From positions 1-64,000 of the forward strand of contig GG745355.1 of assembly GCA_000151295.1 (NCBI GenBank): 64,000 bases of DNA, in the 5' to 3' direction. This document shows positions 3,777-59,387 of this stretch, piece by piece. A program made the translations under genes and the position numbers. The number at the start of each line of letters is the position of its first letter. The first letter of the stretch is position 1. Origin of the DNA: Allomyces macrogynus ATCC 38327 (taxonomy: Eukaryota; Blastocladiomycota; Blastocladiomycetes; Blastocladiales; Blastocladiaceae). The notes under the pieces were generated by a model that did no database searches, had not been told where the DNA came from, and saw only the letters and a list, made by a program, of their open reading frames with translations.

Positions 3777-3779
3777 TTT

Positions 3780-4458: not shown

Positions 4459-5631
4459 CTATTGAAGCGTCCCCCGTTTGGCCAACCGATCCGCGGCCTC
4501 GTTGCCTTCAATCCCAGCGTGCCCTGGGCAGTACTCAAACTTGATTTGACCATGGTGCGCCTGTATGGCCGCATCGAGTTCCTTGAAGTAGAGCGTGTTT
4601 TGCACGTCGCGCTGCTGCGAGTCCTTGTATCCGTTCTTGCGCCACTTGATGATCCAGCTCGTCATGGCGTTGATCACGTATTGCGAGTCGGTGCGGATCA
4701 GCAGGTTTTCAAACGGGGAGACGGTGCGGAGGACCTCGGTCACCGCCTAAAGAAGCGCGAAACGGTCGTGCCGTCAGACGAGGGGGTAGGCAAGGTGCGG
4801 GAATGAGCGAGGAGTAGGGAGGGTCGGTACCTGGATCTCGGCCTTTTGGTTTGAGTGCAGCGATGCGGCGCTGGCCGACGTTTCGAGAATCCGTAACGGC
4901 AGCGAGATGTTTCTGGTAATGGGTGGGACCGCATGAGCACGCGCCGGTTCGAAATCGATCGCTCGCATCCAAAGCAATGAGCATACCGTGGATCACCGCG
5001 ACCAAACCACGCACCGCTAAACACGACAGGATAGTGAGTCGCGCAAATCACAACGGGACCGCACTTGAGCCACAGCCGAGGACGTACATGCCGCCTCGCC
5101 GGCGCTCGGCGGGGCCCTGGCAACTCCCGTCCGTGTAGACGACGGTCACGTTATCGGGCGCGGGCGTGTCGACGGGCACGGGCGTGAATCGGCGAAGCAG
5201 TTCCTGCGCAATGGCGGAGGTTCCCGCGCCGTCGAGATTCGCTGCGTGGGTGCGTGACAATGAGCTTGATGAGGTAGCGTGTGGCCGTTTCCTCGATCCC
5301 GACTGGTATCGATGGTCAGGGGTCATTGGAGAACACCAAGGTCGATGATCACTTGCGAGACGCGCACCTCCTTCTTGAACCGCGGACCGCCTTGCACACC
5401 CAATCCGGGTTCGGCAGTGCTACTGCTTGGTCCTGCCGACGACCTGGTCGCCGCGGCCGTCTCGAGCCCATTCTCCCGCATGTACTCGACAGCCTGGTAC
5501 TGCGATTCAAATCCCTGGAATTTGGCGTTCGAGAACCCAGCCGTTTGCGCTTGACACTCGGGCCAAGACCGGTAGAGACCCGGCTTGCGGCCGCGCACGA
5601 CAACGTAGAAGTTTTTCTTGGCCTTGGCCAT
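4459..5631 (-). CDS. Ribonuclease H1 (hybrid-binding domain + RNase H domain)
   Basis: The enzyme cuts the RNA strand of RNA-DNA hybrids in nucleus and mitochondria. Exons: 5631-5368, 5302-5052, 4912-4831, 4746-4459, all phase-compatible. Residues 1-50 (MAKAKKNFYVVVRGRKPGLY, then WPECQAQTAGF) are the N-terminal hybrid-binding domain of eukaryotic RNase H1. A Ser/Pro-rich linker follows. The catalytic domain shows all four acidic positions: YTDGSCQG, NQKAEIQ, RTDSQYV and GHAGIEGNEAADRLA. The reading frame stays open upstream of this ATG to 5982 and contains an in-frame ATG at 5865, which would add 78 residues resembling a mitochondrial presequence. It is divergent from the proteasome gene. Confidence 0.85.
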
Positions 5632-5865
5632 GGTGGTCGACGAGAAGCAGCGAGTGGAGCCGTTTGGGAGGCCGACGAACGCGACGCGTCGTCGACGCGC
5701 GTCGGGAGCCGAGAAATCGATGGCGGGATGGCCGAGCAAGTGGCGTGAAGTGTGCGCCGTTGAGAGCAGCCGTGCCGTCGCGCGGGTCGAGAAATGGCGG
5801 GTTAATTGGCGTGCGGGAGAGGCAAGGGGGGACGAGATTGATGCGCGAGCGACTGGACCAAGCAT
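5632..5865 (-). CDS. Possible in-frame N-terminal extension of RNase H1 (mitochondrial presequence)
   Basis: From the ATG at 5865 the frame reads 78 codons straight into the RNase H1 ATG at 5631. The first 45 residues are rich in Arg, Ser, Ala and Thr with no acidic residue (MLGPVARASISSPLASPARQ at the start). Animal RNase H1 uses two start codons to make mitochondrial and nuclear forms, so this may be the same arrangement. Whether transcripts begin far enough upstream is not visible. Confidence 0.5.
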
Positions 5866-6346
5866 TAACTTGAGGGTCGGCCAAGGGTGCAGCAGGCCGT
5901 CGAAAGCGCGGCGGTGCAGTGGGCAAGAGCTTGAGCAGGTTGCGGTTGCTTGGCCAATCAATTCGACTTGATGGTGAGGCAACAGCAGTCGCGATGCGGC
6001 GGCCAGGCTCTCTCTGACTCGCCAAACGAAGACGACGACAGTGAGCCAGCTGGCGAGGTGACGTCGTCTGACTCACTGTGCGGTGAGAAAGTCCCTGCCG
6101 ACTCACACGTGCACTGGCGCATTCGGGCGTGACCGCGGAACGTCAGCGCGCTCTGGGGCCTCGTCGTGGACTGCCAGCTGCTCAACGATCCGACAACGGC
6201 GAGCACGATCACGACGAGCACGTCCACGACGACCACGACGACAACCGCTCGAGGACCGACCGCACACGCACCTGCGCCGGTGCATCCACCAACTGCCTTC
6301 TCGCTGCACGCTCCGACCAACCACCCCACCCACGCAACCAACCACC
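5866..6346. promoter_or_regulatory. Divergent promoter region, RNase H1 / proteasome beta-2
   Basis: This interval of about 480 bases separates two divergently transcribed genes. It is GC-rich with ACG/CGA-rich runs near 6200-6245, and no clear TATA box was seen. Shared control is inferred from geometry only. Confidence 0.4.
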
Positions 6347-7301
6347 ATGGCGCTCAAGCTCGAGGCACCAAAGGCCGGCTTCTCGTTTGACCTGCACGCG
6401 CGCAATGACATGCTCGTCTCGCGCGGCGCCAAGGTGCCCAAGGCCACCAAGACCGGCACCACCATCGTCGGCGTCGTCTACAAGGTACGCTTACTAACCC
6501 GTTTAAATCGGTGCGTCGCGTCTAGCGCTGATACGCGTCTCGATGCCCACACAGGACGGCGTCGTGCTCGGTGCCGATACCCGCGCGACCGAGGGCCCGA
6601 TCGTCGCCGACAAGAACTGCGAAAAGATCCACTACATTGCCCCCAACATGTACTGTTGCGGAGCCGGTACCGCCGCCGACACGGAGTTCACCACCAACCT
6701 CATCTCCTCTCAAATCGAGCTGCACAGCCTCTCCACGGGCCGCGAAGCCCGCGTCGTCACGGCCATGACCATGCTCAAGCAACATCTCTTCCGGTACCAA
6801 GGCCACGTCGGTGCCGCCTTGATTCTCGGCGGTGTCGACTTCCACGGGCCGCAGCTCTTCACGATCCACCCGCACGGGTCGACCGACAAGCTGCCCTACG
6901 TGACCATGGGGTCCGGATCGCTCGCGGCCATGGCCGTCATGGAAGCCAAGTGGCAGCCCGACATGGACCGCCAACAGGCGATTGATGTCGTTGACGAGGC
7001 CATTCGCGCCGGTATCTTCAACGACCTCGGATCCGGGTCGAACGTCGACGTGTGCGTGATTACCAAGGGCAACGTCGACTACCTGCGCAACTACGCCAGG
7101 CCCAACGAGCGCGGCGTGCGCGAGGGTGTCTACACCTACGCACCGGGAACCACAAGTGCGTTTTCGATTCGATACACCATAAGTTATTGTTCTTGCGCGT
7201 CCAACTTACTTTCCCTCGCGATATTTCCTGTAGAGGTTCTCACCGAAAAGATCACGAACCTTGTCGACGTGATCGAGGGCGAGGACATGGACTTGTCCTA
7301 A
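6347..7301 (+). CDS. PUP1: 20S proteasome subunit beta-2 (trypsin-like site)
   Basis: This catalytic subunit of the 20S core gives trypsin-like cleavage. Exons: 6347-6484, 6555-7155, 7234-7301 (268 residues). The ATG sits in ACCATGG. The propeptide ends at KTG, followed by the mature N-terminus [20 protein letters not shown] with catalytic Thr1; Asp17 (GADTRAT) and Lys33 (VADKNC) are in place. Residues [12 protein letters not shown] and [14 protein letters not shown] are further family blocks. The C-terminal arm (GTTKVLTEKI) that wraps the neighbouring subunit is joined across intron 2 in the correct phase. The length is normal for the family, and the name follows yeast Pup1/human PSMB7. Confidence 0.95.
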
Positions 7302-8269
7302 CCGGTCGAGCACAACAGTTGTGGCTCGGTCTGGAGGGGACACATTGAGGAGGGGATCAGGTCGGGCAGAGCCAGAGAGTGATGTATGAAGTCCATACCG
7401 AGTCGTCAATCTTGGCGTTTTCTCTCCAAACTTTGTTTTCTTGTCACCTTGTCAGCCGTCAGCATGTAATTCGCAAGCTCCGATATGCTCTGGCGCGGCT
7501 CTGCCGTGTTCACTGTGGCTGCGGTGGGTGGTGGGCTGCAGTGCGTCCAACTTGCCAAAAGGATCGCCTCTGCGTGCACGCGTCTCTGCCTGTTCACACT
7601 AACATTTTCATTTGTCTGTAAATCCACACCATCGCAACTGCCAAATGTTGGATATTATCAATGCTGCCCGCCGAAATTCGTTCGCACCAAAGTACCTGTG
7701 GCCCGCACCGCATTGCCAGCACCGTACGCAAATGGGCGAGCCATGCGCGACAGTAGAGAGCATCGCGCAAGTGAAGCGCACCGCTTGGTCATGGGAAAGC
7801 AACAATGGACGCGGCATTCAGAGGGATGGGCGTGGTGACTGGGGACGCCAATGCAAACGTCGCCTGAACAAGCGTGGTTGGGGAGAGGGAGACGGCGGCC
7901 AATGAGAGGGTGGCGTAGAGGGGGCGACACAACAGAGAGTGATGCACGATGAGAGTCAGGCGTGCGGACAGCGGTGGAGAAGAACGTTCAGAGGGGGATT
8001 CGAGGGCAGCAGAAGAGCGACGTGTAACGACAGGACAAAACCACGGAATAAACGGCACGACGGCCGTGTCGGACAACGCAGTGCACGGCCGAGCAGAACG
8101 GCACGCAACTGAGAAGTGCAAGGAGAGAGAGGGCGACAGGGGCGCAGAAATCTGAGAAGGAAACGCTGCGAATGGTGAGCAAAGAACAGTCATGGGACTT
8201 GGCAAAAGCTAAAGCGGCAGCAGGACCACGGGAGACAGCGATAGAGAGCAGAGAAATCGGAGTAGTCGA
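7302..8269. other. Intergenic, no gene recognised
   Basis: This holds only short ORFs without motifs. The first 200 bases are presumably the 3' region of the proteasome gene. The rest is purine-rich on the plus strand and leads into the repeat block. Confidence 0.5.
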
Positions 8270-9425
8270 GGTGAGCAGGTCTGTGCTGACGGATGTGCTC
8301 CTCACGACTTACACGAAGTGCTTCTGGGAAAAGCAGGGCATGAGCTAGACGTGCGAGAGGGCTATGAAACCGTGGAGAATTACATCGGACGGAAAGCGAG
8401 CGTGGTGCAAGCATGAGGAGGGATTCGGCAACAAAGGAGAGCAATGCAGGAGCTGCGGCGGGAGCGTGGCGAGCGACGATGGCTGTAAGTGCGCAGCTGT
8501 CGCGAGAATCGCACGGCCGCGTCGTGAAATATTCAAAGGACATGCAAGAAAGGAGATTGACCAGGAAAAAAAAACAAATGCGCGATAGCGAGCAGCAAAC
8601 ACTAACCTGGATCGGCAATCTGCAGCCATGAAAATAGCAACACAACGTGCAATGGAACTCGGCAACTTGAAGCGGCAAGGCCACCACGGAGACGATGCGA
8701 GCAGCCCAGCGGAATTTGCAAACGACACGGCAATCGTCGAGAGCGCTGCGAAATTGAGCAGAGCGACGTGCGAATGGAGATAGCCGTAAAGTGTGCGGTC
8801 ATGAATATGAACGCGGCATGGCGCAATGAATCGCGCGTAACCGTCGAGAGACAGCGAGAGAGGAGAGCAGCGCAAGACGGTTGACACCGCTGCGCGAGTG
8901 GATGGCAGCAGACGGCCGGTCAAGGCTGTAGGAGAGGTGAACGATACACGGCCGAGGAGAAAGCGATGGTGGTGCGGAACCCACACCGCCGACACTGGAG
9001 GAGAATCAACAATGGAGAACAATGTAAGAGCAGTAGCAAGTGCGTGGAGAACGACGACGGTGACACGCGCAGTTGTCGCGAGACTCACGCGGTCACGAAG
9101 GCGCAAATCGTGAGAGAGAGACTCTGAGGAGGCGCGAGAAGGGAGATCGACCCGCAGAAAATGCGCGGCAGCAAACAGTGAACACCGGACAGCGACCAAG
9201 GCCAGCAACTTGCAGTCATGAAAATAGCAACGTGACTCGCGGCCGACCTCGGCAGCTAGAACCGGAAGTACCGAGCGAGCGACGCAGCAGATTCCGTCAG
9301 CGACGCAGCAAATATCGAGGTCACCGTGAGAGTGGGCGGAGCGACGCGTTAATGGAGAGAACCGCGTGACTTCGGAAAAGAGTGCAAGGTCGTGAAGAAA
9401 GATACGGCGCGGGGCAACAAGTGAC
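8270..9425. repeat. Diverged tandem duplication, period about 580 bases
   Basis: Two copies can be aligned by eye. GCGCAGCTGTCGCGAGAATC at 8491 matches GCGCAGTTGTCGCGAGACTC at 9067 (offset 576). GCAGCAAAC at 8592 matches 9168 (offset 576). TGCAGCCATGAAAATAGCAA at 8621 matches TGCAGTCATGAAAATAGCAA at 9211 (offset 590). The copies are too diverged to be recent. No coding frame is shared, so this is more likely a non-coding satellite-like repeat than a gene pair. Confidence 0.6.
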
Positions 9426-9899
9426 GACAATAGTCGAGAGCAATAAAGTTGAGAAAAATGGATTAATGGCATCGGTCGATGTGCAAGAGGAGCGGCGCGC
9501 GGCCGTGGTGAACGTTCCCAAGCCGAGGATGAAACGGTGCTGGGGAACCGACAGCTGGAGAGGGCGCGCGCGTGTTCGCGCGCGACCGCCGTCATCGATG
9601 CGGCCGACTGTGGATGCGCGACGCGGGCGCGGGCATGGGTCCGCCGGCAGGGCGCAGTGCCGGGCAAGTGAGCGAGCTCGCATGTGGGGCAACCAAATGT
9701 CAAAGTCGAGACATATAAGACGACGCGGCCGCGGGGCAACGGAGCCCTAGCGAGTAGCCGGCCATGCAGGGCATCGTAGTCGCGTTTTGCGGTCGCCGTC
9801 GTGCCGTCGATTTGGTACCGGTCGTCGGGACAGTGGTGTCGTGCAGCTGGTGCGTGAGAAGACAGTGAGCCGCGCAGGCCTCGGCGCCGCCATGACCGG

Positions 9900-10660
9900 C
9901 CTCTTCGGGTCGTTGGTGGTGCCGTTGAGGAGGCGCGGAGCGCCACGGCGGAACGGCTGCGGGTCGGGCGCAGAATGCGTGGACAAAGGTGCGACGCGCG
10001 GAGAGGGCGGCCCCGCGCCGGGCGTCGGCGCCGACGTAACCGGGCGACGTGGCCTGGAGACAGCGCGCAGATATAATCGTGGTGGTGCTGTAGGTTGGTG
10101 ATGGTGCAGTCGAGGAGGTGCGGCGCGCGACAGGACGACCTCGAGTTGGGCGAGTGCAACAACTCGGGACGGTACGCGAGATGAGGGCACGGCGCGCCGA
10201 GGCATGGAAATGGCGCGCAATAATGACCATGGTGCTGCCGCAAGTCGTTCAAGATGCTGCCGAGGAGGAGGTACAGCGGGCGACGTCGGGACGCGTTGGT
10301 TGGGCGCAACGGCGTGGGTCTGGAAGGGCGTGCCACGCGGGCGGTGGCGGCACCGACGTGGCCTTCTGGCATGGTCTGGAGATCTCGTGCAATGGTCCAT
10401 GATGGTGATCGCTGCAAGTTGATGTTGGTGTCGTCGTGGAGGTGCAGTGCGCAAGGGTGAGGTCGTGGCGGGTCGGGGACGTGACGCTGGGGAAAGGGCG
10501 GCGGCGCCTCGCGACTGGCCGCAAAAGCCGCAGCGTTCGCGCATCATGGAGTTGCTGCAAGTCGTGCTGATGTCGTCGCGGTGGTCGCTAGTGAGGACGG
10601 GACGGGGCAGTCGCGCGCAACACGGACGACGGACGACGACGACGACGACGGCCAAGGCCA
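9900..10660. repeat. Degenerate tandem repeat, unit about 150-185 bases
   Basis: A GGAGG(T/C)(G/A)C-type core recurs at 9929, 10114, 10267 and 10438, each followed by GCGC-rich sequence and GTCG/TGGTG-rich flanks. Units are strongly diverged. They explain why the opposite strand shows very long arginine/proline/histidine-rich open frames without a domain. Confidence 0.45.
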
Positions 10661-18370: not shown

Positions 18371-19189
18371 TCAAATAACGCGGCGGTCCGACATGACGCG
18401 GACAATCGAGCCGACGCCCGAGACCTCGGTGATCTGTTTGAAAGCAAAGAGATCAGTTTCAGCGAGAGCACTTGCGCAGCAACCACGACGACGGATACCT
18501 TTTCATGCCATGCGAGGAGCGCACCGCAGTTGTAGAGTTGCGGCTGGGCCATGGCCTTGTAGACGTACTTGAGGAGCAGGTCACGGTCGGCGGGCGAGAG
18601 GGGGGGCAGGTACTGGGCGGCATCGGCGACGCGGGCCGTGGTCAAAACGTCGGCAACGGCCTTGGTCGACTGTTCCTTGGCCGGAGCGAGGGCTGGATCG
18701 GTGCCGTAGGGCGCGTCGCCCGTGAGCGCGGCGGTGAGGGCCTCGGCAACGGCACCACTGGAAATGAAGGAGCGGGACGCGACAGGCGGTGGACGGCGTT
18801 AGATTCCGTTCGAATCGGGTGAAGGGGACGGACTGGGCGGTCGAAGCTCGCAAGACGCGTCGCGTGCAGTTTATTGGTTCAACAGGGGCACGCGCCGCGC
18901 GGTGACCCATCGGCATGCCCCACGGCGTCGCCAAGCGGTGGCGCTGCTCTGCGCAGAGTGCAGCTGGTGGCTCGCTGGCTGGGTGGGCGTGGATCGGCGC
19001 GCGGCCCCGCTCAAAGAAGCGAGCAGGTCGCAGTAAATACCGTGCAAGCAGGTTGGCAACGTGGGCGGCGCGCTCGGCGGCAACGGCATTGAGCACGTCG
19101 GGCGGCGGGCCGGCCGGGTTGAGCGCGGCCGACTCGTAGTCCTCGTCGTCGAGGCCGAGCGAGTCGACGTCGACTTTGCGGTGCGACAT
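18371..19189 (-). CDS. ARPC5: Arp2/3 complex subunit 5 (p16-Arc)
   Basis: This is the small subunit that links Arp2 to the rest of the actin-branching complex. Exons: 19189-19041, 18757-18499, 18433-18371 (156 residues, normal length). It opens MSHRKVDVDSLGLDDEDYES, the acidic start typical of ARPC5. It continues VANLLARGAVAEALTAAL and LSPADRDLLLKYVYKAMAQP, then LLAWHEK, and ends ITEVSGVGSIVRVMSDRRVI. All three junctions keep phase. Branched-actin machinery fits an amoeboid or zoosporic life stage. Its two donors (GTATTT, GTATCC) deviate from the common GTRCGY pattern of the window. Confidence 0.93.
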
Positions 19190-19390
19190 GGTATCGTATT
19201 GGCTGTTGCGCGAGCTGGCGGGCGGCGTCGCAGGCGGGGTCGGGACGCAGAGCAGGTTGAGCGCGCGCGAGAACATTGACTGGAGTGCGGTGGGTGCGGT
19301 TGCGGACGGACGCGGTGATGTGCGCTGCTGCAGGCGCGCTCGTCGTTGGGAGCGAGTTTGCGTGTGGGAAACGAGCAGAGCCCGGGGGCT

Positions 19391-30143: not shown

Positions 30144-30238
30144 GCTCGTGGTGCATGCGTCTCTTTCGAGACGGTCGTGTTTCGGAGTTGGTTGTTGTCG
30201 TTCGCTGAGGACAGCGCGCCGAGCACGCGACGAACGTG
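30144..30238 (+). CDS. Possible C-terminal end of the gap-interrupted coiled-coil gene
   Basis: One frame after the gap reads about 31 codons (FETVVFRSWLLSFAEDSAPS) to a TGA at 30236-30238. It may be the end of the protein that enters the gap, but continuity cannot be shown. Confidence 0.25.
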
Positions 30239-31299: not shown

Positions 31300-32681
31300 A
31301 TGGGCTGCGTCTCCAGTTCCGAGGCCCAGGGCAAGTCCAACTCGGACGCCATCGACATGCAGCTCAAGCGCGACGCGGCCCGCGCGCGCAACGAAGTCAA
31401 GCTGCTGCTGCTCGGCGCCGGTGAATCCGGCAAGTCAACGATTCTCAAGCAAATGACGCTGATTCACGGCGGCGGGTACACCGACTCGGACCGGCAAGCC
31501 TTCCGCGAAATCATCTTCGCCAACGTCCTGCAAGCCATGGTCGCGCTCGCCAACGGGTGCACGCAGCGGCTTGGTCTGCCGCTCGCCGGTGGGGCTGCTG
31601 CAGAGGAGGCCGCGGAAATGCTCGCGGATGCGGTAGCGATTGCCGGCACCTCGTCGCCGCTCGCGGGGGTCGATACGTTCCCGGCCGACCTGGCGCGTGC
31701 GGTTGCGATGCTCTGGCAAGATTCGGCGATTCAGGCGGCGTACTTGCGGTCGCGCGAGTTCCAGTTGAACGATTCGGCGAAATACTACTTTGACGCGCTC
31801 GAGCGGATTGCTGCACCGGGGTATGTCCCGACCGACCAGGATATCTTGCGGTCGCGTGTCAAGACCACGGGCATTGTCGAGACCACGTTCCATATTGGCG
31901 ACTTGACGTACCGGTGCGTATTGTGTTCGGTTTCATGCGATGCGCCACGGCACGATCCTTATCGTTCCTTGTCTCTTCCACAGCATGTTCGACGTCGGCG
32001 GCCAGCGGTCCGAGCGCAAAAAGTGGATTCACTGCTTTGAGAACGTCACGGCTATTGTCTTCCTCGTCGCCATTTCCGAGTACGACCAGGTGCTCGTCGA
32101 GGATGAGTCGGTCAACCGCATGATGGAAGCCCTGGCCCTGTTCGACAGCAGTACGTTGCGCCGCATTGTCTTCGTCGTCTCTATTCGGCTACTCACCACT
32201 CTTCTCCCTCAACAGTTTGCAACTCGCGGTGGTTTGCTCACACGTCCATCATTCTGTTCCTCAACAAGGTGCGCACTGCCCTTTTCCCGTATATACTTCT
32301 CGTGCCAACGTAGCGCTCCGGCCCGCATGCCATGTAGATCGACCTGTTCAAGCAAAAGCTCATGTCCGGGTCGTCGCCACTGTCGCACTACTTCCCGGAT
32401 TTCCCGGCCGTCAACGACAGCAACTACGACGCGGCATGCGAGTACTTCCTGCAGCGGTTCACGGCACTCAACCGGTCCACGGAAAAGCAAGTCTACACGC
32501 ACTTCACGTGCGCGACTGACACGACGCAAGTGCGCTTTGTCATGGCCGCTGTACGCATCAACCCGTCCTTACCTCCCAGTCCCGCACCTGGTGCACGACG
32601 CTGACCCCTCGACCGTCTCGTCTCGAATAGGTCAACGACATTGTCATCCAGGAGAACCTGCGCCGCGTTGGGTTACTGTAA
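31300..32681 (+). CDS. Heterotrimeric G-protein alpha subunit
   Basis: This GTPase couples seven-helix receptors to effectors at the plasma membrane. Exons: 31300-31913, 31984-32150, 32216-32268, 32338-32550, 32631-32681 (365 residues). The start MGCVSSSE offers N-myristoylation at Gly2 and palmitoylation at Cys3. G-box motifs: GAGESGKST (G1), RSRVKTTGI (G2, catalytic Arg and Thr), [13 protein letters not shown] (G3), ILFLNKIDLF (G4, joined across an intron) and TCATDT (G5). The tail ENLRRVGLL lacks the Cys at -4, so pertussis-toxin-type ADP-ribosylation is not expected. Between G1 and G2 the helical domain has an Ala-rich insert ([16 protein letters not shown]). All junctions are phase-consistent. 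Confidence 0.95.
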
Positions 32682-34777: not shown

Positions 34778-36715
34778 ATGTCGCTCGGCCCTACCGCCGC
34801 CGTCGCTGCCAAGATGCCGGCCAAGCCGCGCCAGAGCAAGACGATCATGACCGGCCGCATGCCATGGTACTCGATGGACGGCGCGCCCAACCGGCCCTAC
34901 ATTATCGGCATCGCCGGCGGATCGGCTTCGGGCAAGACCACCGTCTCGCAGCGCATCTTGCAGAACCTCGGGTCACAGGTCGTGCTGCTCTCCATGGACT
35001 CGTTCTACAAGTCGTTGACCGACGAAGAGATTGCGCGCGCCCACCGCAAGTACGGTTCCTCCGTCCTCGCTGTTCCTGCCGAGGCGCACGGTTGGGGACT
35101 TGGATCTGCGCAAGTTGGCCTGTGAAATCGTCGCTGATCGGCCTGCATCATGATTCAACTTTTTTTTTTTCCAGCGAGCACAACTTCGACCACCCAACGT
35201 CGTTCGACTACGACATTCTGTTTGACGTGCTGCGCAAGCTCAAGGACGGCAAGTCCGTTGAAGTGCCTGTCTACGACTTTTCCACTCATTCGCGGCTCAA
35301 GGACAAGACCACGACCATCTACGGCGCCAACGTCATCATTTTCGAAGGCATTTTCGCACTCTTCGACCAGTCGGTCCGCGACCTCATGGACCTCAAGGTC
35401 TTTGTTGACACCGACTCAGATATTCGGTTGGCACGCCGCTGTACGCTACCAATCAGCTGAACCAGCGGAAGCGAAAGGCCGGGGATTGACCTTTCATGTC
35501 CACCACGCTCCATTTCCAGTGAAGCGCGACATTGCCGAGCGCGGCCGCGACGTAGCCGGCGTCCTCCAGCAGTACAATATGTTTGTGAAGCCGGCGTTTG
35601 ACGAGTTCATTTACCCGACGATGAAGTTTGCCGACGTGATTATTCCGCGCGGAAAGGAGAATTTGGGTTCGTCCGCTTTCGTCGCATTTGAGCCGCCGTT
35701 GCAACCACGCTCATCTTGCCGTGATCCACAATCTAGTCGCGATTGACCTCATCATGAAGCACATTCAGCACCAGCTCGACGAGCGCGGTCTCTCGTTCCG
35801 CCACCAGCTCGCCAAGGCCAACTTTCCCGCCGAACTGCCGTCAACGGTCGTGGTCATGCCGCCGCGCGGGCAGCTCAAGGCACTGCACACGATTATCCGC
35901 GACAAGACAACGTCGCGCAGTACGTTTTTGCTCGAAGTTTCGACGTTTCGTCGCCAACGACCGCGCTGACCCGTCGTTTTTGTTCTGCAGGTGATTTCAT
36001 CTTCTACTCGGAGCGACTGAGCTGCCTCGTCATGGAACGCGCGCTCGCCGAGTCGCCACACGTTGAGCGCGTCGTGCGCACGCCGACGGGTGACACGTAC
36101 GCGGGCCTCGCCATGACCGAGAACGTACGCATTCTCGCGCTCTCCTCCATAACCATCACTTCGCTCTTCTAACTCGTCTGTTCCACCACCGCCTAGATTT
36201 GCGGCGTCTCCGTGATCAGGTCTGGAGCGACCATGGAATCCGGCCTCCGCCGCGTCTACAAGGACGTGCCCATCGGCAAGTTGCTCATCCAGTCGTCGCC
36301 CATCTCGGGCGAGCCCGAGTTGCACTACTGCAAGTTGCCCGTCGATATCAAGGACCGCGTGGTTCTGCTCATGGACGCGACGATCGCATCGGGTGCGGCA
36401 GCGCTCATGGCTATCCGCGTCCTGCTCGACCACGAAGTCAAGGAGGAGAATATCATTTTCACGACGCTGATTGCCGCGCCGCCGGGGTTGCACGCGATTC
36501 ACCGCGCGTTCCCGCGCGTGCGCGTCGTTGTCTCGGAGGTCGACCCGGAAATCAACGACCAGTATCATATTTTGCCCGGGATCGGGAATTATGCGGGTAC
36601 GTTGCGTGGTGCGGCGACGCTGCAGTGCGGTGATGGAGGGTGCCGGAGAAAGATTGGGGAGGACTGACCTATACTCTGTTCGATGCTAGACCGGTACTTT
36701 GGCTCGGACGACTAG
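34778..36715 (+). CDS. Uridine kinase-like protein with fused UPRT domain (UCKL/Urk1 type)
   Basis: It phosphorylates uridine/cytidine in pyrimidine salvage. Seven exons: 34778-35049, 35175-35440, 35520-35666, 35737-35919, 35991-36124, 36197-36596, 36690-36715 (475 residues). The kinase half shows [12 protein letters not shown] (P-loop), [29 protein letters not shown] and [13 protein letters not shown]. The phosphoribosyltransferase half has [30 protein letters not shown] and the end [14 protein letters not shown]. Its PRPP-loop position reads [13 protein letters not shown], with Ala residues instead of the Gly-rich active loop, as in animal UCKL1, so UPRT activity is probably lost. A run of about 20 T precedes the exon 2 acceptor. 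Confidence 0.94.
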
Positions 36716-41847: not shown

Positions 41848-43861
41848 TTACGTGTGCACACTCAACGACACGCGACGCTTCATCACTTGCTGCTTCTCCA
41901 TGTTGAGCATCTCGCGCATCGCCGGGTCGCGCTCGGTCGCCGTGACGAGCACCTTCTCCTTGGGCAACGCCGTCAACCCAAACCGCGCCTCATCGCTGAA
42001 CGGCTTCCCCGGGTGCAGCGCCGAGTCGAGTGTGACACACGCCATGAGCCGCGACACGAGAATGAACATTTCGCGCAGCGCGAGATGCACGCCCGGGCAC
42101 AGGCGGCGACCCTGGCCAAACAAGTAAATCCCATCGAGCAAATCGAGCCGGTGCCCTGCCTCGTCGGGCGCCATCAACGGCGCGGCCCCGTCCTCGGCCA
42201 CGGTCTTGAGGCCGGACCCACGACGGCCGCCGGAACCTGCCGCCGGCAAGATGGGTCCGTTGCCCGAGTCGTTGAAGTTGGCCGCAAGCCACCGCTCGGG
42301 CTTGAACTTTTCCGTGTCCTCTGGGTAGAGCCCCTCGTGGATCCCGACCGTGTTGTAGATGACTTGCGCGTCCTTGGGAATGTAGTACCCGGCGACCGTG
42401 TCTTCCTCGATCGTCTGCCGCGGCAGGCCGAGCGGGCCGACGGGACGGATGCGCGTGGCTTCCTTGATAATCGCGCGAGTGTAGGGCATCGCGTCCATGT
42501 CCTCGAAGCACGGGAGCCGCCCGTGCGTCTTGACGATGCGGTCGGCCTCGGCCTGTGCGCGCTTCTGCACTTGCGGGTAGTTGCACAGGTAGAGCATGAC
42601 CCAGTGCAGCGTCGCCGACGTCGTGTCCTAGGAAATGAAGGGTGTGCCAGTTAGGACGAACCCAAGGGATCGGAAACGCGCGCAAAAATCAGCCACGTAC
42701 AATGCCCGCAAAAATGAAGTCCACCATGAGCAGCTTGATGTCGTTGAGCGTGAGCTTCTCCTCGTTCATGGACAGCAACAGCTCCTCGACGTAGCACAGT
42801 TCGCGGTCGGTGCGCGGGTCGCGGCCCTGCGCGAGATCACCCTTGATGATGGCCTCGAGCTCGCGGATGCGGCCGAAAATGAACCCATTGTGCACGCGCT
42901 CCTTGATACGTTCCATGACCTCGCGCTTGTGCTTGGTGAGCACGTAGTCGAACAGACCACCGCCGTTGAAGTAGTCTTCGAGCCCTCCCACGCCGCCAAT
43001 CACAAACACTTCGAGAATGGCCTCGATCAGGCCCGTGAACGTTGAGTTATCAGACGAGGCAAACGTGACGCCGAGCGACTTGGCCGCGATAATGTTGCAC
43101 GTGTAGAGAATCAGGCGCTTGGCAATGTCGATAGGCTCGGTGCGGTGCTTGTCGTTGTGCTCCAGCAGCTGCTGAATCATGCGCAGCGACTCGTTCTCGA
43201 GCATCACGTCCATTTGCGTGAGCGCAAGTGGGGTCAGGACCTTGTGCGCGACGCGACGCAGGTGGCGCCAGCGCTCGCCGTACGGCGACTGTTTGCGGTG
43301 GGTGAAAAGCGTCGAGGTGAGACAATGAACATGCGAGCGAGACCACACGCGACAGAAACACCATTCGTCGTCACGTACCATGACCAAATCCTGCGCGCCG
43401 TCGCCCGACATGGACAGCACCTTGCCGGTGAACCGACCGGCGTAGATTTTGCCGTGCTTGATGAGCGTCTCGCGCGCGAGCTCCTCGCTCGAAATGACAA
43501 TAACCGTGACATTACCGAGCTTGAGGTGGAAGATCGGCCCGTATTCCTTGGCGAGCCCCTGGATCAACTTGTCGGTCTCGGTCGTCGAGGCCATGAGCGG
43601 CAAGTGGCCAATGATCGGCCATGCGGGCGGGCCCGGCGGCAGTCGCTTGGTTGCGTCGGAAGACTTGAGCAATGCACGACGCAGTGCCAGAGCGAGCCCG
43701 AGCGAGACGGCAAGGACGGCGACGAGCGGCACCGACGAGTTCTCGGCCGCGGCGAACGGCAGAACGCGCGCGACGTACGCGGACAGGGCCGTGACGGCCG
43801 AACCGGCCGTGTCGCGCAACGGCGCCGGAATCAGGTTGGTGACGGTGCTGAGGATCGGCAT
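41848..43861 (-). CDS. Cytochrome P450 monooxygenase
   Basis: This is a heme-thiolate monooxygenase of the endoplasmic reticulum. Exons: 43861-43379, 43288-42701, 42627-41848 (616 residues, somewhat long). An N-terminal membrane anchor (LVAVLAVSLGLALALRRALL) precedes the Pro hinge LPPGPPAWPIIGHLPL. The I-helix FAGIDTTSATLHW is joined across intron 2. The ExxR motif is KEATRIRP, followed by PERW. The heme loop is FGQGRRLCPG with the Cys ligand. Between PERW and the heme loop lies a Gly/Ala-rich insert of about 40 residues (GSGGRRGSGLKTVAEDGA), longer than usual. The frame stays open upstream to 44236, but that part lacks P450 character. Substrate unknown. Confidence 0.92.
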
Positions 43862-49198: not shown

Positions 49199-50663
49199 AT
49201 GAAGCAACTTGGCCGCCACATTGAAAAGGACGCGAGTGGCTACGTCAAGCTGTGCCCGGAAGAGTCCGAGGACATGTGGCACATTTACAATTTGATTGCA
49301 CCAGGGGACCGCATTCGAGCATCGACCATTCGGTGCGCTGTCACGACCCATTGCTACATTCGTTCGGGCCATTCGTTGACCCGCTCCGCTCAACGGTAGC
49401 CGCGTGCAATCCGAGTCGTCAACCGGGTCCGTCGAGTCGCAGCGCATGCGCGTCACGCTCACGCTCGAGGTCGAGGACACCGAGTTTGACGGCACGGCGT
49501 GCCAGGTCAAGATCAAGGGCCGCAACGCCGAGGAGAACCGATTTGTCAAGCTCGGCCAGTACCATACCATGGACCTCGAGCTCAACAAGCCGTTCACGCT
49601 CATCAAGCGTGAGTGGGACTCGATTTCGTTTGAGCGCATCGACAATGCGTGCAATGTGGCCAAGCGCGCCGAGATCGCCGCTATTGTTCTGCAAGAGGGT
49701 TCGTTTTGCGCGCGTCACCTCGACCCCTCTCGCCTCGGTGCGCAGCGTTCTCATTGTCCTTCATTTCTCGGTCATAGGTTTGGCAAATCTGTGCTTGCTG
49801 ACCGAGCACATGACCATTGTACGGCAACGCATCGAGGTCACGATCCCACGCAAGCGCAAGGGCAGCGCGTCGAACCACGACAAGGCCATCACCAAGTTTT
49901 TCGATCAAATCTACCAGGCGATCCTGCGGCACATTGACTTTTCGATTGTCAAGGGCGTCTTGCTCGCGAGTCCAGGATTTTTGAAGGTTTGCGGGTTCCT
50001 CCTTGGCCCACTTCTCGGCTGATTCTCGGCAGCTGAAGCATTTCGTTTTGGCTCGTGGCTAGGACCAGCTGTTCGAGTACATTTTTGCCGAGGCCGTACG
50101 CACGGAGCAGCGCACGCTCATCGAGAACAAGCCCAAGTTTCTCGTCCTGCACTGCTCGTCGGGCCACAAGCACGCGCTCACGGAGCTCATGCAGGACCCG
50201 ACAGTGCTCGCCAAATTGTCCGACACCAAGTTTGCGACGGAGACGCGCGCGCTCGATCGGTTCCACCGCATGCTTCAGGACGACCCGGATCGTGCCTTCT
50301 ATGGGACAGCGCACGTGCTCAAGGCGTACGAGCTGGGCGCCATCGACACGCTCATGATCGCCGACTCGCTGTTCCGGTCAAACGACGTGGCCACGCGGCG
50401 AAAGTACATTGCGCTCGTCAAGGGGGTTCGGAAGAACGGCGGGACGGCGCTGATCTACAGCAGTATGCATGTGACGGGCGAACGTACGTGCTGTGCTGTT
50501 CTTTGGGTCATTCTTTCGCTCGTTGCTTAGGAGCACGACCAATACTAACGGCCCTCCCTCTCTCTTTTTCCTTGGCATTGCTTCCGTCGCACCAGAGTTG
50601 AACAATCTTTCGGGGATCGCTGCTATCTTGTCGTTCCCGGTCCCAGAAATTGACGATGAGTAA
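49199..50663 (+). CDS. DOM34: Pelota/Dom34 ribosome-rescue factor
   Basis: It works with Hbs1 and ABCE1 to split stalled ribosomes (no-go and non-stop decay). Exons: 49199-49332, 49400-49698, 49778-49986, 50063-50483, 50596-50663 (376 residues, normal length). Domain 1 shows [29 protein letters not shown] and [17 protein letters not shown]. The middle domain has [20 protein letters not shown] and IPRKRKG. The C-terminal eRF1-like domain has [18 protein letters not shown] and [20 protein letters not shown]. As expected, there is no GGQ peptidyl-hydrolysis motif. All four introns keep phase. Confidence 0.96.
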
Positions 50664-52457: not shown

Positions 52458-52626
52458 AGTACTCCATCCGCACAGTACGACCAGGATGAGCACTCAAGAA
52501 AGCCTGAGCGGTGCAACATCAACATGCCTGGACAAAATTGTATCAACGGATTGAACTGGGAACAACATCCAACGGCCTCTTCGGAATAACCGCATCCTAC
52601 ACCACCGTCACCAAACCCCACATATT

Positions 52627-54286
52627 CTACACGACATTCGCGACCGCCGAATCGCTCGCCTTCGTATCCAACTCGACACCCTCTTTCGCCAACGGCGTGC
52701 GCGCCAAATCGCGTGACGCCCCCGCGCGGCGCATTTCCACCGACGACGAAATCCGCGCGCCAACATAATCAAACGTAAACTCGCCCATTTGCGCATGATC
52801 GATCCCGTCCTCCTCGGCCTCGGCCGAAACGCGCAGCGGCAACCCGATTTTCCCCATCACAAACGCGATAATGTAGGTCACGACAAACGCCCATGCGCAC
52901 CCGGCGCCAATCGACGCCAACTGGTAGACGATCTGGATCGGGTGGCCCGCAATCGCGCCGCCGGGCTTGACCGTGCCGTCGAGCGCGATCCAGTAGGGTT
53001 CCGCGAAAATGCCCGTGAGAAAGGCGCCGACCATCCCGCCAATCGCGTGCACGCCAAACGCATCGAGCGCGTCGTCGTACCCGAGCGCGTGCTTCCAATG
53101 GGTCGCGTAGTTGCACGCGACGGCGCCGAGGAACCCGAACGCGAGCGACGCGGCGGGGCCGACGAACCCGGATGCGGGAGTGATCGCGACGAGGCCGGCG
53201 ACCGCGCCGGAACAGAACCCGAGCGCCGAAACGCGCCGGTCGCGAATGTAATCCATCACCAGCCAAGTCAACGATCCCACAGCCGAGGCGAGATACGTGA
53301 CAAGCACGGCGAGGGCCGCGCGAGCATTGGCCGCACCGGCACTGCCGCCGTCGAATCCGGCCCACCCGAAAATGAGCAGACCCGTGCCGAGAATCACCGA
53401 CGACATGGAGTGCGGGACGATCGGCTCCGTGGATTCGCGGCGGCGGCCGACGACGAGGGCCATGGCGAGCGCCGAGAAACCGGAGGTCATGTGCACGGGC
53501 AGACCGCCGGCGAAGTCGAGCGCGCCAAGCTGGTTGAGCCACCCGTTGGCGCCCCAGGTCCAGTAAGCTAGAGACATGGAGGTTGGTAAGTTTCCGAGTG
53601 GGGGGTGCGAATTCTCTGCAGAACGAGACGTTGAAGCGCACCAATCGGGTCATACACGAGCGTCGTCCAGACGAGGATGAACACGCAGGTCGGGATCAGC
53701 GAGAACCTGTTGAAGAAGCGGTCGTGTCAGCGCTCTGATCGTCATCCCACACATTCCGGAACGAAGCGAGAAGCGTACCGCTCCGCAACCGCACCGACGG
53801 CGAGCGCCGGCGTCAGCGCCGCAAACATGGCCTGGTAGAGGCAAAACGCGAGGTTCGGCAGCGTCGAAATGACCGACTGGTCGCCGCCCACGTTCATCAA
53901 GAACGCAAACTGGCCGTCGCCGAGGAACGGTCCGCCCGTGGTCGAGAAGCACAGACTGTAGCCGATGACCATCCATTGCACGAGCACAATGGCGAGCGAG
54001 AGCATCGAGATGAGGAGCAGCGAGAGCGCATTCTTGTCGCGCGCCATGCCCGAGCTATACACGAAAAAGAAAGCACCAAGAGCGTCAGCAATCGGCAACA
54101 TTGGGCGGATGAACAACGCGAATCAACGCACTAGAAATATCCCAATCCCGGGATCATGATGAACACGAGCGCGGCCGACGTCAAGATCCACGCGACGTCG
54201 CCTGCCGCGGGAGGTGCCAACGGCGCGGCCGCCGCGGGTGTTGGCGTCGCCGTCTCGGTCGGAACCAAAGACGATGTTGCTGACAT
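52627..54286 (-). CDS. Ammonium transporter (Amt/Mep family)
   Basis: It takes up ammonium across the plasma membrane. Exons: 54286-54132, 54054-53779, 53706-53642, 53567-52627 (478 residues). The periplasmic-side start GDVAWILTSAALVFIMIPGL runs into FYSGMARDKNALSL across intron 1. Eleven helices are readable, with GAVAERFSLIP, DPIAYWTWGANGWL and LGALDFAGGLPVHMTSGFSA (first twin His). FGVHAIGGMVGAFLTGIFA holds the second twin His. The cytosolic tail (about 60 residues) is Ser/Ala-rich. The microexon of 65 bases joins in phase on both sides. Transport rather than sensing is inferred from family. Confidence 0.95.
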
Positions 54287-55282
54287 GGCGCTGCTGGTGT
54301 TACTGGTCGGTTTCGCGTTGGTTGAGTGGTGGGGGTTGTCGTTGGGCGAGCGAGCAATGGATCCGCTGGCAAAGTTGGAAATGCGGAGTCGCGGTCCGGT
54401 GGAGAATCAAGACAGGAGCGAAATCAAGGATGAGCAAGTCAATTCTAGTCCCATCGAGCGGGTCGTCGTTGACTTTATACCGAGCGCGACTGCTGCAGGC
54501 GTCTGGGTCCCACTGCATCGCCCGCAGCGCAAGCCGAGCGTCAGTCGCCATGGCACCCTCGCCCGTCCGTCCCGTCCGCAACCGTCCGTGACGTGCATGA
54601 CCGCGCGAGCAACCGGACGAGATTCGCGCGTGCGGGGTGGACGCGTGCGAGCGCGACGCGACCCCGCGTGCCCACCTCGCCGCCCCCGCCCATGCCCGCG
54701 TGCGGCAGGCAAGTTTCCTGTTTCCGCCCCTCCTGACCGCGGTCACGGTCCGCCTCGCTGATGGAGCGGTTGCGGTTAGGCGTCGCTGCGCGTCGATGTC
54801 GGGAGGTGGCGGACCGCGAGCAGGTCAGGCGGGTCGTAATCGGTGTGCGAATGTGGCGAAGCGCCCCATCGGGGGACCGGCTGCTTGAGCGGCGCGCACA
54901 TTTTCTTTTCCTATCCTTGTCGTTGCCGCAGTCTTCCAAGACATGGCCTGAATTGGAGGCAAATTGAATTTCTTTGCGGTTTGCGCCGGCGCTGGTGAGC
55001 ACAAGAGAGCGTCAAGGATGAGCATGACGATGGTGGGTGTGCAAGGGGACGTGAAGGAGAGAAGGATTGTCATGCGTGTGGCGAAAAGGCAAAGTGATGA
55101 CATGCATAGGGTCAGATATCGCTGGATTGCTGGATTGCAGCCGTCATTTGCAAAAAAAATAGCCCAATGACCAGCTGGATCAACCTGCTGCCTTCGAGCT
55201 CGTTCCTCTCGGTTGATGGTTCGTCTTGCGCAAAGCACGCTCCAACAACCATCAGTCCACCACGAGCAAAGTATCCGACTTG
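54287..55282. promoter_or_regulatory. Divergent region AMT / ELP5
   Basis: This is 1 kb between divergent starts. Several overlapping motif-free frames are present and no RNA gene was recognised. Confidence 0.35.
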
Positions 55283-56690
55283 ATGCAGCCCAACGTAACA
55301 GCAGCGTCGATAGCTGCCCAATGTCTGCAAGACCGCATCGTGACGGGCAAGGAGCCCGTCCCCATTCTCGCCATCTTCGACTCGGTCTACCAGACCGGGA
55401 CGGCTGTTCTCGTGGATCTCGTCGCAAGGTCATTGGCAAGGTTGGTTGGCACATGTTTTTTCACCAACTAGGGTCGCACACGGACGAGCCCATTGCAGCG
55501 AGTGTTGGCCATGTGGATGACTTGATCCCTGTTGGCGTCGTTTCTGATGCAAGGCTTCTGAAATATCGCGCCCCATAGGCAACGACCAGTCACCGTGCTC
55601 TGTCTCGAGTACTCGGCAACGACATGGCGATCCATATTGGCCAAGACCGTGGGCGGGTCGGCGGCCGCGTCGCCCCACCTCAACTTGGTCGACCTCTCCG
55701 CGTCGCTGCCCGCCACCGCGGACGCAACGTACTTTGATACCCGGATCCTGCCGGCCCTGCACAAGCACGCCAAGTCCGGTTCGTTACTCTTGACCATGTC
55801 CTGCTGCGTGCGTTGCAACACGAACCAGCAATTGATTGGATCACTTTCGACTTTCAGAGGACCCGATCCTGGCCATCATTGACGCCGTCGACGCGCTCGT
55901 CCAGCTTGCACCGCGCTCCACCACCCTGTCTACCGGGGCATGGCTCACACGACACCTCCGACGCACCCACGCTGCGTGCCCGTCCGGGTCGACCCTCGCG
56001 TTTGGCGTCGGCGCCGACACGTTTACCGCTCCGCGGCAGGACCACGTCGCCACACGCGTCATTGACGTGCCGACGGCGGTGCGGCACTTGGCCATGGTCA
56101 CGATTGACGCGGAGAACGCGGCGCTCGCCGAGCAGGAACGGACGGTCGTGCGCAATGTGGCCGCGCACGACTTGCGGCTCGATCTCGGCGCAAACGACCC
56201 GGACCGGCTCGTGTGTCGCGTGACGTGCCGCAAGACGCGCGCGGGCAAGTATGTTGCCGAGCGAAATCTCGCCGAGTGGCGCGGTGGGCAGTTGCACGTG
56301 CAGCCATTTGTGGATGCAGAGTCTGGCGAGCCCGAGGTGGTGGTTCCGGTACCGGCGCGTGCACCGGACGGGGAGGGCGAAGTGGTGCGTGCAGTGCCCA
56401 AGACGAGCAAGGCCGTGACGACGAAGGCACCATCGCCCTCGACGGCGGCAGCCGCCGCCGATCCGGCCGCCAACTTGTCGTTCAACTTGCGGTTGACGGA
56501 CCGGCAGCGCGAGGCAAGGGAGCGTGTCGTGCTGCCGTACATGGCCGTGCAGCACGAGTCGCAGCTGGGGACGGCCGCGACGACCGCGCTGGCAGCGTCG
56601 CCGACCGGCGGTGGCGCGACCATTTTCTACGAGTACGACGTGGACGACGATTTTGACGACGACGATCCCGATGCGGATTTGGAGATTTGA
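55283..56690 (+). CDS. ELP5: Elongator complex subunit Elp5
   Basis: Elp5 joins Elp4 and Elp6 in the RecA-like ring of Elongator, which modifies wobble uridines of tRNAs. Exons: 55283-55428, 55579-55778, 55858-56690 (392 residues). The N-terminal RecA-like fold shows PVPILAIFDSVYQTGTAVLV, RPVTVLCLEYSATTW and EDPILAIIDAVDALVQL. The C-terminus is the family hallmark: NLSFNLRLTDRQREARERVV, LPYM, then IFYEYDVDDDFDDDDPDADL and EI. No Walker A is present, as in other Elp5. The low similarity of this family in the N-terminal part leaves the start (first ATG in frame) somewhat open. Confidence 0.9.
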
Positions 56691-57200
56691 GCGGATTGAG
56701 CAGAGCAGAAGCACAGTGAAATGTGTTGTGTTAAGAAACAATCGAAAAGAAACGACCGGGCGAATGTTGGGCGAAACCGTGGTGAAAAAGCCAAACGAGT
56801 TACGCCCCGTTCGCACCAGGTTCGCACCGGACTAAACAGCCAACACCACCCAACCGCTTCCCATGTCGACGTTGACGACTTTGACGGCCGCCGTCCACAC
56901 CGTCGGTCCCTCCCGCTCAACGTTCGCGACTGCTCGCTGCACTCCCCCATCGCCCACGCCGGCCCTCACTCCCCGCACTGCACGCTGCCGCGGCACCACC
57001 GTCGACGCCGCGAGCTCCCGGGTCCCGCCGTACCGACAGCACCAACTGTGCCACAACTTGCGCAGTCCTCCCAAGGAGCCATCAACTTCCCAGTAACGCC
57101 TTGACGAACCAACCGCAACCGCCCTACGAATCCTTGACTGCCGGCCAGCCGGTTGATTGATTGGTTCCTCGCGCCCCGTCCGCACCGTCACCCTGACACG
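56691..57200. promoter_or_regulatory. Intergenic, upstream of the CBS-PB1 gene
   Basis: There is no gene. The second half is CG-rich promoter-like sequence. Confidence 0.35.
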
Positions 57201-59387
57201 ATGAGCTCCGCGTCCTTCCCCGCGCGGCTCGCATCGACGCCGCCCGGCAGCGCCTCGGCGCTCGGCGGCGACGTGCGCCGTCGCCACAAGGCCCGCGACG
57301 ACGCTATCCGTCGCAAGATTGACCAAGGTACTTGGTGGTGCTCGAGCTGCGCATCCGTGAGGTGATTGGGCGGCTCACGACGACGACACCGGACATAGAA
57401 CTGTTGCGCAAGGGCGGCCGTCGCCCGGCCCCACCGTCGCGGTCGAACACGGCGGCCTCAGCGGCACCGCTCCTGCCCAACGCCAAGGCCGGGACTGTTG
57501 CGGCGTTGCGACCGACGCCGCCGATTACGATTCGCCAGACGATGCGCGTGCTCGATGGAGCGCAGTTGATGGCCGCGCGCCGGTGCGATGCGCTGTTGGT
57601 GGTTGACCAGCAGGTATGTTGTTGGATCGGTGCTGCAGCGAAGTCGGGCGTTTCCGGGTGGGGTGGGTGCTGACCGGAAGGGATCGATGGCGCCGTTTTA
57701 GGATCGCTTGTGCGGGATCGTCACGGACAAGGACTTGACGTTCCGCGTTGTTGCGGAAGGCCGCGATCCGATTGCGACCAAGAGTACGTTTGGCTCTCGC
57801 ATCACATACCTCCGCCTTTTTCCCTCACTCGTCACCTTGTGGGTAGTCTCGGACGTCATGACCAAGGACGTCGAGTTTGTCAACGCCAACCAGACCGCGT
57901 CCGAAGCGCTCTCCGCCATGATCCAGGGCGGGTTCCGGCACTTGCCCGTCATGGACGACGAGGGCGATGTCGTCGGGATTCTCGATATCACCAAGTGTCT
58001 CTACGAGGCGCTCGACCGCGTCGACAAGATCTACGGGTCGTCCAAGAAACTGACCGACGCGCTCGAGGACGTGCAGCGCGACTGGGCGCTGACGGGCATC
58101 AACGCCGCGCTCTCGCAGCAGTTTGAAATGATTCGCCAAAAAATGCTGTGCCCGGACCTGGCCAGCGTCATGGCCGCCGACACGATGCGCCCGCCCAAGC
58201 TCGGCGTCAAGGCCACCGTCCGTGACGCCGCGCGCGCGATGAAAGCGGCCGGGTCGACGGCGACGTTGATTTTCGACGAGAATGCGCAACTCGCGGGCAT
58301 TTTCACGTCCAAGGACGTGGTCCTGCGTGTCGTCGCGGTCAAGGGGGACCCGAACTCGACCTCGGTGATTCGCGTCATGACGCCGCGCCCGGATACGGTC
58401 ACCAACAGCGCGACCATTTACGAGGCGCTGAAAATGATGCACGATAATCATTACCTTCACTTGCCCGTCGTCGACGCGCAGTCTCCCGGCGCCGTGCTGG
58501 GCCTGATTGATGTGCTCAAGCTCACCTACACTGTGCTCGACAAGATCCACACGGTGCGCGACCAGGACGGGCCCGCGTGGGACGATTTCTGGAAAGCCAC
58601 GTTTGCGCCCGAGTCGACCGTGAACGGTGGGAACAATAACCAGCACGACGTGGACTCGGTCATTTCGGCCACGACGGGCCCCGCAGGCGGGTCCATGATT
58701 CGGCCGTCCGACTCGGCGTCAGTGATTTCTGACGGGTACGCGTTCGGGCTCGCGCAGCAGCAGACTTACGACCCGGACCAGTGCTTTGTCTTCAAGTTCC
58801 GCGACCCGTCGACCATGGCGGTGCACCGCGTCACGTCGCCGCTGTCGCTGGCCGTGCTCGTGACCTTGCTCAAGGAAAAGATTGGACCGCACGTGGAAAT
58901 CAATACGCTGTCGTACTCGGACGACGATGGGGACGACGTGACGATCCAGACGGACGTGGACCTCGTGGCCGCAGTCGCCATGGCGCGCGACGCCGGTTTG
59001 CGCCGGATCCTCCTCGCGATCAACGGCGTGCGGCCGACGGTCGACTCGCCCGCGGCCGCCATGTCCGGCGGGACCGCGCCGGCCCGGCGCCGGTCGCAGC
59101 AGGGGGATATGTTCTCGGACCCCGTCCTTGTCGGTGTGGGCGCGGACGTGCCGCCGATGCCACCGAAACCGGCGTCGGTCACGATGTCGCAGACGTCGGC
59201 GACGCGGTCGCTCGGTGGGGGTGCGGTCGCGCCTGCGTCGGCAGTGGGCAGCGCGATGAGTGGGGCGACAGTCGCGCCCAAGAGGAGCTGGATGCAGGCG
59301 TTGTTTGAGCATCCGGCCATGTTGGTGGGCATGGGCGCGTTGACTACGTTGAGTATGGTCGGGTTGGCGAGCTTGATGCGGCGTTGA
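57201..59387 (+). CDS. CBS-PB1 domain protein with C-terminal membrane anchor (Mug70-like)
   Basis: Exons: 57201-57327, 57399-57613, 57702-57783, 57847-59387 (654 residues). Two Bateman pairs (four CBS motifs) are readable: TIRQTMRVLDGAQLMAARRC to GIVTDKDLTFRVVA; VSDVMTKDVEFV to GILDITKCLYEAL; LGVKATVRDAARAMKAAG to GIFTSKDVVLRVVA; VIRVMTPRPDTV to GLIDVLKLTYTVL. A PB1 domain follows (CFVFKFRDPSTMAVHRV, acidic YSDDDGDDVTIQTDVDL). A C-terminal hydrophobic segment ends in RR (PAMLVGMGALTTLSMVGLAS), suggesting a tail anchor. CBS pairs usually sense adenine nucleotides. S. pombe Mug70 has the same CBS-PB1 layout. Function not established. Confidence 0.9.

Follow-up and report, generated by a model that had tools for sequence, protein, structure and literature searches.

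The stretch of Allomyces macrogynus DNA analysed here (the window) comprises 64,000 nucleotides, bases 1-64000 of contig C48, and carries genes for RNase H1, proteasome beta-7, a G-protein alpha subunit, uridine kinase, a cytochrome P450, Pelota and an ammonium transporter. At the 5' splice sites (donors) of their introns C prevails at position +4, mostly within GT(A/G)CG(T/C), and we relate this bias to variant genes for the U1 small nuclear RNA (snRNA) found elsewhere in the genome. The base at +4 faces position 5 of U1 and then the adenosine of the U6 ACAGA sequence. Donors were checked by homology, with the proteins of the window and of gene models on contig C75 aligned to chains of solved structures. 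C was observed at +4 in 20 of 22 such donors and T in the other two, the share of the window being 19 (17 C, 2 T), as follows.

4747..4830, minus strand: RNase H1 intron, donor GTACCG (+4 C, +5 C), placed by hand; spans a region skipped by the aligned model
4913..4986, minus strand: RNase H1 intron, donor GTATGC (+4 T, an exception), placed by hand from the DNA
5017..5087, minus strand: RNase H1 intron, donor GTACGT (+4 C), placed by hand from the DNA
6485..6554, plus strand: proteasome beta-7 intron 1, donor GTACGC; gap-free alignment to PSMB7, residue 47
7156..7233, plus strand: proteasome beta-7 intron 2, donor GTGCGT; gap-free alignment to PSMB7, residue 247
31914..31983, plus strand: G-protein alpha intron, donor GTGCGT; gap-free to G-alpha and to A. 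arbusculus P0001
32151..32215, plus strand: G-protein alpha intron, donor GTACGT; alignment to G-alpha and to A. arbusculus P0001
32269..32337, plus strand: G-protein alpha intron, donor GTGCGC; orthologues have five additional residues here, which puts the acceptor 15 bases upstream of its place in the model
35050..35174, plus strand: uridine kinase intron, donor GTACGG; gene model and alignment
35441..35519, plus strand: uridine kinase intron, donor GTACGC; 16-residue alignment gap, DNA read by hand
35667..35736, plus strand: uridine kinase intron, donor GTTCGT; gene model and alignment
42628..42700, minus strand: cytochrome P450 intron, donor GTACGT; gene model and homology check
43289..43378, minus strand: cytochrome P450 intron, donor GTACGT; gene model and homology check
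49333..49399, plus strand: Pelota intron, donor GTGCGC; gene model and alignment
49699..49777, plus strand: Pelota intron, donor GTTCGT; gene model and alignment
49987..50062, plus strand: Pelota intron, donor GTTTGC (+4 T, an exception); acceptor 6 bases upstream, which closes a two-residue gap
53568..53641, minus strand: ammonium transporter intron, donor GTGCGC; gene model and alignment
53707..53778, minus strand: ammonium transporter intron, donor GTACGC; gene model and alignment
54055..54131, minus strand: ammonium transporter intron, donor GTGCGT; gene model and alignment

Eighteen of the 22 junctions are backed by machine alignment or by a split Pfam domain (17 C, 1 T) and belong to proteasome beta-7 (2), G-alpha (3), uridine kinase (2), Pelota (3), the ammonium transporter (3), methylthioribose-phosphate isomerase (2), P450 (2) and SNRNP27K (1); the remaining four, one in uridine kinase (35441) and three in RNase H1 (5087, 4986 and 4830), were set right by hand on the DNA sequence and gave 3 C and 1 T. 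Two introns, one in G-alpha and one in Pelota, had their acceptors shifted and their donors left in place. In the uridine kinase gene the model donor GTCTTT at 35398 proved false, the real one being GTACGC at 35441, so that model errors can dilute the C fraction. The hand-derived acceptor of the last RNase H1 intron ends at 4747, which is also where a first-pass annotation of the window began its account of the donor bias, and the intron restores an NQKAEI stretch that we take to resemble RNase H1. Over 96% of its length the G-alpha model shares 98% identity with an Allomyces arbusculus protein, which points to an Allomyces or a very close relative as the organism. Several junctions did not enter the count. 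Those of bystin fall at a one-residue gap (one) or in stretches of poor conservation (the rest). In the model of methylthioribose-phosphate isomerase, the junctions at residues 243 and 354 are misaligned or beyond the alignment, and the fourth uridine kinase intron also lies beyond its alignment. The first intron of the RNase H1 model (5242-5336) was dropped as well, and so was a likely additional G-alpha intron at the 3' end, where orthologues end differently.

The same bias was obtained with a gene finder of our own, a two-strand generalised hidden Markov model (HMM) whose splice model is flat at the start. Its unsupervised training used the window together with sixteen loci of 3-4 kb and a 200-kb part of contig C75. 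With +4 masked, 145 of 198 introns have C at this position (A 12, G 14, T 27), the commonest donors being GTACGT (34), GTGCGT (24), GTACGC (19) and GTGCGC (15), and GT(A/G)CG accounts for 109 of the 198. When only GT was modelled and no donor motif, the count was 107/167 (A 10, G 24, T 26); with the full donor motif it was 162/200 (A 8, G 12, T 18), and in a fourth version, where -3 was masked along with +4, it was 147/196 (A 9, G 15, T 25). An artefact of donor modelling is ruled out, as the C persists when the donor model is flat and also when both positions, -3 and +4, are masked. Donors with A at +4 number 8 to 12 per version. The first-pass annotation had counted C in about 42 of 52 introns of the window and had seen no GTRAGT donor (R, A or G). 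The bias it described holds in the window and beyond, while the exact fraction is uncertain: our model places 35 introns in the window (27 C, 6 T, 1 G, 1 A with +4 masked), fewer than had been placed before, and some of them are wrong. As for GTRAGT, neither GTAAGT nor GTGAGT occurs among these 35 donors, while GTAAGT is found in 3 of the 198 donors of the wider sample. The first-pass annotation saw its exceptions cluster in ARPC5 and CDF; our gene model at 18371-19276, ARPC5-like by eye, has two donors with T at +4 in both.

U1 genes were sought in the whole assembly (54.0 Mb, 75 contigs). The pattern ATACNTACC followed by an Sm site 110-139 bases on occurs at two places, L001 and L020, and nowhere in a reversed control; a second pattern search for further copies also gave only these two, and a broader pattern gave nine matches against eight in the reversed control, of which only L001 and L020 are U1-like by eye. 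L001, on contig C66, is a canonical U1 gene; its 5' end reads ATACTTACC / ATACTTACCTG, all 11 bases intact. L020, on contig C63, has the 5' end ATACGTACC / ATACGTACCTT (the gene reads ATACGTACCTTGG) and differs from the canonical 5' end at 2 of 11 positions, with G for U at position 5 (G5) and U at position 11 (U11). Its whole length matches the Rfam U1 family (RF00003), at 35.1 bits and E 1.6e-6. Like canonical U1 it displays a four-helix fold, the GAUC loop, GCACU in stem-loop II (loop GGCACU), an Sm site and an AUAC-UACCU 5' end, while its G5, its U11 and its stems set it apart, the latter sharing little sequence with those of the canonical copy in the same genome. With the 5' end and the Sm site held open, both L001 and L020 fold as helix H plus three stem-loops, with z scores against shuffles of the part between of -3.67 for the canonical gene and -2.33 for L020. 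The Rfam search of the genome missed L020, and a divergent second canonical U1 copy may have been missed likewise. No match to the variant U1 was found in viral contigs.

L020 also has the flanking signals of an snRNA gene, namely a TATA-like box, CATAAAA, at about -37, a position occupied in the U2 genes by TATAAA (four of them) or AATAAA (the fifth), and, directly 3', TTTGCTGGCTTTATG with the exact core TTGCTGGCTTTRT. This core stands exact after four of five U2 and two of three U5 genes, whereas neither of the two U4 copies is among its exact sites; with 63 sites in the genome when compared to 2 in the control, and with small nucleolar RNA matches at some of the further sites (see below), it is very likely a small-RNA 3' box. 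The box of the canonical gene L001 (TTGCTGGATTTGT) is one base off, and no TATA match lies within 60 bases upstream of it; given these signals, the expression of canonical U1 may be weak or of a different kind.

When L020 was used as the query of a DNA search, a second variant copy, L102 (with L103), was recovered on contig C45. It is 85% identical to L020 and keeps G5, its 5' end being CTACGTACCTAGG, which differs from L020 at positions 1 and 11, and it has TATAAA at -39. The U1 patterns had passed it over owing to its Sm site and, for the first pattern, its first base as well. L020 has 44 helix pairs, of which L102 leaves 32 unaltered, changes 6 on one side and 3 on both sides, and breaks 3. 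When the 16 substitutions at paired positions were placed at random, 11.3 pairs were broken on average and never three or fewer in 2000 trials. The differences between the two copies, which mostly preserve pairing, indicate selection for the U1 fold. The base facing +4, the one whose inspection in U1 had been proposed, is G in both variant genes and the canonical U in L001, which supports the suggestion of the first-pass annotation that U1 has changed.

The change at position 5 is also the one that the donors favour. Of all 33 single substitutions in the 11 bases that form the canonical 5' end of U1, G for U at position 5 ranks best by energy and by pair count, with a mean duplex energy 3.1 to 3.7 kcal/mol better and 0.59 to 0.70 additional pairs per donor. 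G5 restores a Watson-Crick pair with C at +4 and forms a wobble with U, the second commonest base there. In ungapped pairing the variant is better than canonical U1 at 120 of 198 donors and worse at 20, while among 1000 decoys from coding sequence it is better at 283 and worse at 381; the gain in duplex energy with the variant is -4.3 to -7.8 for donors and -2.1 to -3.8 for decoys. At -3 the donors are enriched in A (log2 1.2) and not in C; U11 of L020 pairs with A at -3, while the canonical G11 pairs with C. When the 16 combinations of bases at positions 5 and 11 were compared on the models with -3 and +4 masked, G5 with U11 came out best (excess +0.541) and the canonical U5 with G11 had -0.317. 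This complementarity, like the donor bias and the variant genes with their structure, is what the DNA itself shows.

We consider it quite probable that the second class of U1, with G5, reads most 5' splice sites of this fungus and that the donors evolved GT(A/G)CG(T/C) to match. With less confidence, we lean towards the fuller account in which the G5 U1 is now the main U1, the donors co-evolved with it (C at +4, A at -3), U6 is unchanged and +4 is selected by U1 alone. If so, and here again the balance tips only somewhat in favour, U1 and its targets would have undergone compensatory change in nature and on the scale of a genome. From the sequence we infer that the variant is expressed and abundant, dominates over canonical U1 and is used in splicing. 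Mechanistically, the G5 U1 would recognise the 5' splice site by pairing from -3 to +6, C at +4 included, and U6 would then take over via G at +5 and U at +6. After this hand-over C at +4 would lie opposite the ACAGA adenosine of U6 and form no standard pair with it, leaving +5 and +6 to support the U6 helix. Canonical U1 is retained as a gene, perhaps for the few other donors or for another U1 task.

Several observations weigh against this interpretation. A canonical U1 gene is present, so the variant need not be the main form. L001 (43.4) and L020 (35.1) both score under the RF00003 gathering score of 69.5, and the unconstrained fold of L020 is no better than that of shuffles (z -0.76; canonical -2.45). 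L102 looks less intact: its first base differs, position 11 is A, its Sm site is AAATATTTGG, under constraint its own minimum-energy fold deviates from the four-helix form, a motif scan found no 3' box and Rfam gave no match at E<=1. Decoys gain duplex energy with the variant too, which reflects in part a general stickiness of G. Finally, sites of the form GTRNG (N, any base) are C-rich anyway, the baseline being 31-55% by region and not 25%.

The first of these points admits a different role for the variant U1, which might be expressed for a subset of sites, for polyadenylation control or for nothing, canonical U1 tolerating C at +4. The intact 11-base 5' end of L001 favours this explanation; it is nevertheless unlikely, as L020 fits the bulk of donors at both altered positions and combines a TATA-like box with an exact 3' box, whereas canonical U1 lacks a TATA match in the 60 bases upstream.

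The last point raises the possibility that a GC- and CpG-rich genome simply drifted to C at a barely selected +4, the variant U1 being incidental. Outside donors, GTRNG sites already have C in 475 of 912 cases in coding sequence (sense; antisense 613/1118), in 56 of 125 in introns (sense; antisense 67/216) and in 494 of 1513 in intergenic DNA, and A is scarce there (54/912 in coding sequence and 10/125 in introns, both sense). Composition accounts for part of the +4 C bias. Donors of GTRNG form nonetheless have C at +4 in 67 of 81 cases without a donor motif and in 109 of 133 with +4 masked; for donors of other form the figures are 40/86 and 36/65. Against decoys matched as G|GTRNG (G at -1, R at +3, G at +5), C is found in 72 of 87 donors and 127 of 268 decoys (odds ratio 5.3, Fisher 2.9e-9), and A in donors falls under the decoy level (odds ratio 0.35). 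The excess of C over composition is real, yet smaller than a comparison with 25% would imply. Moreover, G is the commonest +4 base at GT decoys in coding sequence (38%) and occurs in only 15 of 196 donors, and two altered U1 positions fit the donors. We regard this explanation as very unlikely.

Turning to the other partner of +4, four U6 copies were found, all ATACAGAGAAGATTAGC with the canonical ACAGAGA, so that the changed U6 offered in the first-pass annotation as an alternative is ruled out for these four, the base facing +4 being unaltered. A PF05971 domain with NPPF, assigned at the level of the METTL16 family, and SNRNP27K with YRQYMNRKGGFNRP are both present, which rules out a loss of either; the Met within YRQYMNRKGGFNRP we take to be human Met141. 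A switch at +4 of the Parker type, defined by loss of METTL16, SNRNP27K or Met141, is not what is seen here. In Saccharomycotina the +4 preference tracks METTL16 and SNRNP27K while U1 and U6 are invariant, and species with both have A at +4 (PMC10581693). With the PF05971 domain and SNRNP27K retained, these known determinants predict A and leave C unexplained. A change in U6 modification or in a protein (METTL16, SNRNP27K, Prp8 or U1-C) that shifted the preference to C (inosine in place of N6-methyladenosine at the ACAGA adenosine, for instance, would pair with C) has the Saccharomycotina precedent in its favour (PMC10581693) and is highly improbable in view of the canonical U6 copies, the PF05971 domain with NPPF and SNRNP27K with its YRQYMNRKGGFNRP.

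The 5' end of U1 is usually held to be nearly unchangeable. A genome-wide change of the +4 preference has a parallel in the Saccharomycotina, with switches from A to U; there the switch is between A and U and the weak-to-strong (W:S) ratio varies much less, while here it is to C and comes with an altered U1 base (PMC10581693). In that survey the U1 sequence ACUUACC is invariant in 227 of 230 Saccharomycotina and 9 of 10 outgroups, that is, in all with a U1 candidate, and the U6 ACAGA is invariant too in the species examined; compensation at U1 position 5 was considered in it and not found (PMC10581693). Human variant U1 snRNAs are likewise paralogues of U1 with altered bases, many of which lie in the 5' end, but they are described as acting on select targets, whereas the Allomyces change fits the bulk of introns (PMC5159530). 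A compensatory U1 base that rescues an altered 5' splice site is known from laboratory suppressors (Zhuang and Weiner 1986, cited in PMC11732430), which were engineered and concern one gene, while the present case would be natural and genome-wide. Among titles and abstract openings of the open-licence PubMed Central literature, with subscription journals mostly outside it, we recognised no report of a natural U1 position-5 change with a genome-wide donor shift. GTACGT is listed among the donor hexamers of a motif search in Hypoxylaceae (PMC9024468), so that donors with C at +4 are allowed elsewhere. In Blastocladiella emersonii, retained introns have GT..AG ends in 102 of 105 cases and a CTAAC-like branch (PMC2773782), and the intron density of A. 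macrogynus has been reported (PMC8476143). Should our interpretation be correct, a genome with C at +4, a G5 U1 and an unchanged U6 would separate the contributions of U1 and U6 to the choice at +4. In fungi of this kind, introns may be wrongly placed by gene predictors that look for GTRAGT.

Further small RNAs came to light around the TTGCTGGCTTTRT core. When 271-base pieces at 56 further sites were compared to Rfam, 11 matched at E<=0.01, all to small nucleolar RNA families (four of them U3, three above the gathering score), and 45 had no match at this threshold; the latter may point to unannotated small RNAs. L061 and L068, two similar RNA candidates with no Rfam match, carry the Sm-like TTAATTTTTGGAACTC immediately ahead of the 3' box, a placement close to the 3' end that is reminiscent of fungal telomerase RNA or of spliced-leader RNA. 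L091, also without an Rfam match, has AATTTTTGC about 20 bases before the box.

Among the other spliceosomal RNAs, loop 1 of U5 is canonical in L011, and across the three U5 genes the loop reads GCCTTTTCC in L013 and GCCTTTTAC in L011 and L012. The branch-binding sequence of the five U2 copies (L006-L009, L010) is GUAGUU in four and GUAGUC in the fifth, the Rfam consensus being GUAGUA. Two motifs without flanking preference are enriched close to the 3' ends of introns, CTGAC in 64 introns (antisense, 6) and CTCAC in 44 (antisense, 4); a changed branch site matching the U2 change is not claimed, since no flanking base preference was seen around CTRAC. Within the window, an integrase-like reading frame with related fragments lies at 1-4000 and is retroelement-like by eye only, and a run of N stands just before position 30151, within a gene model.

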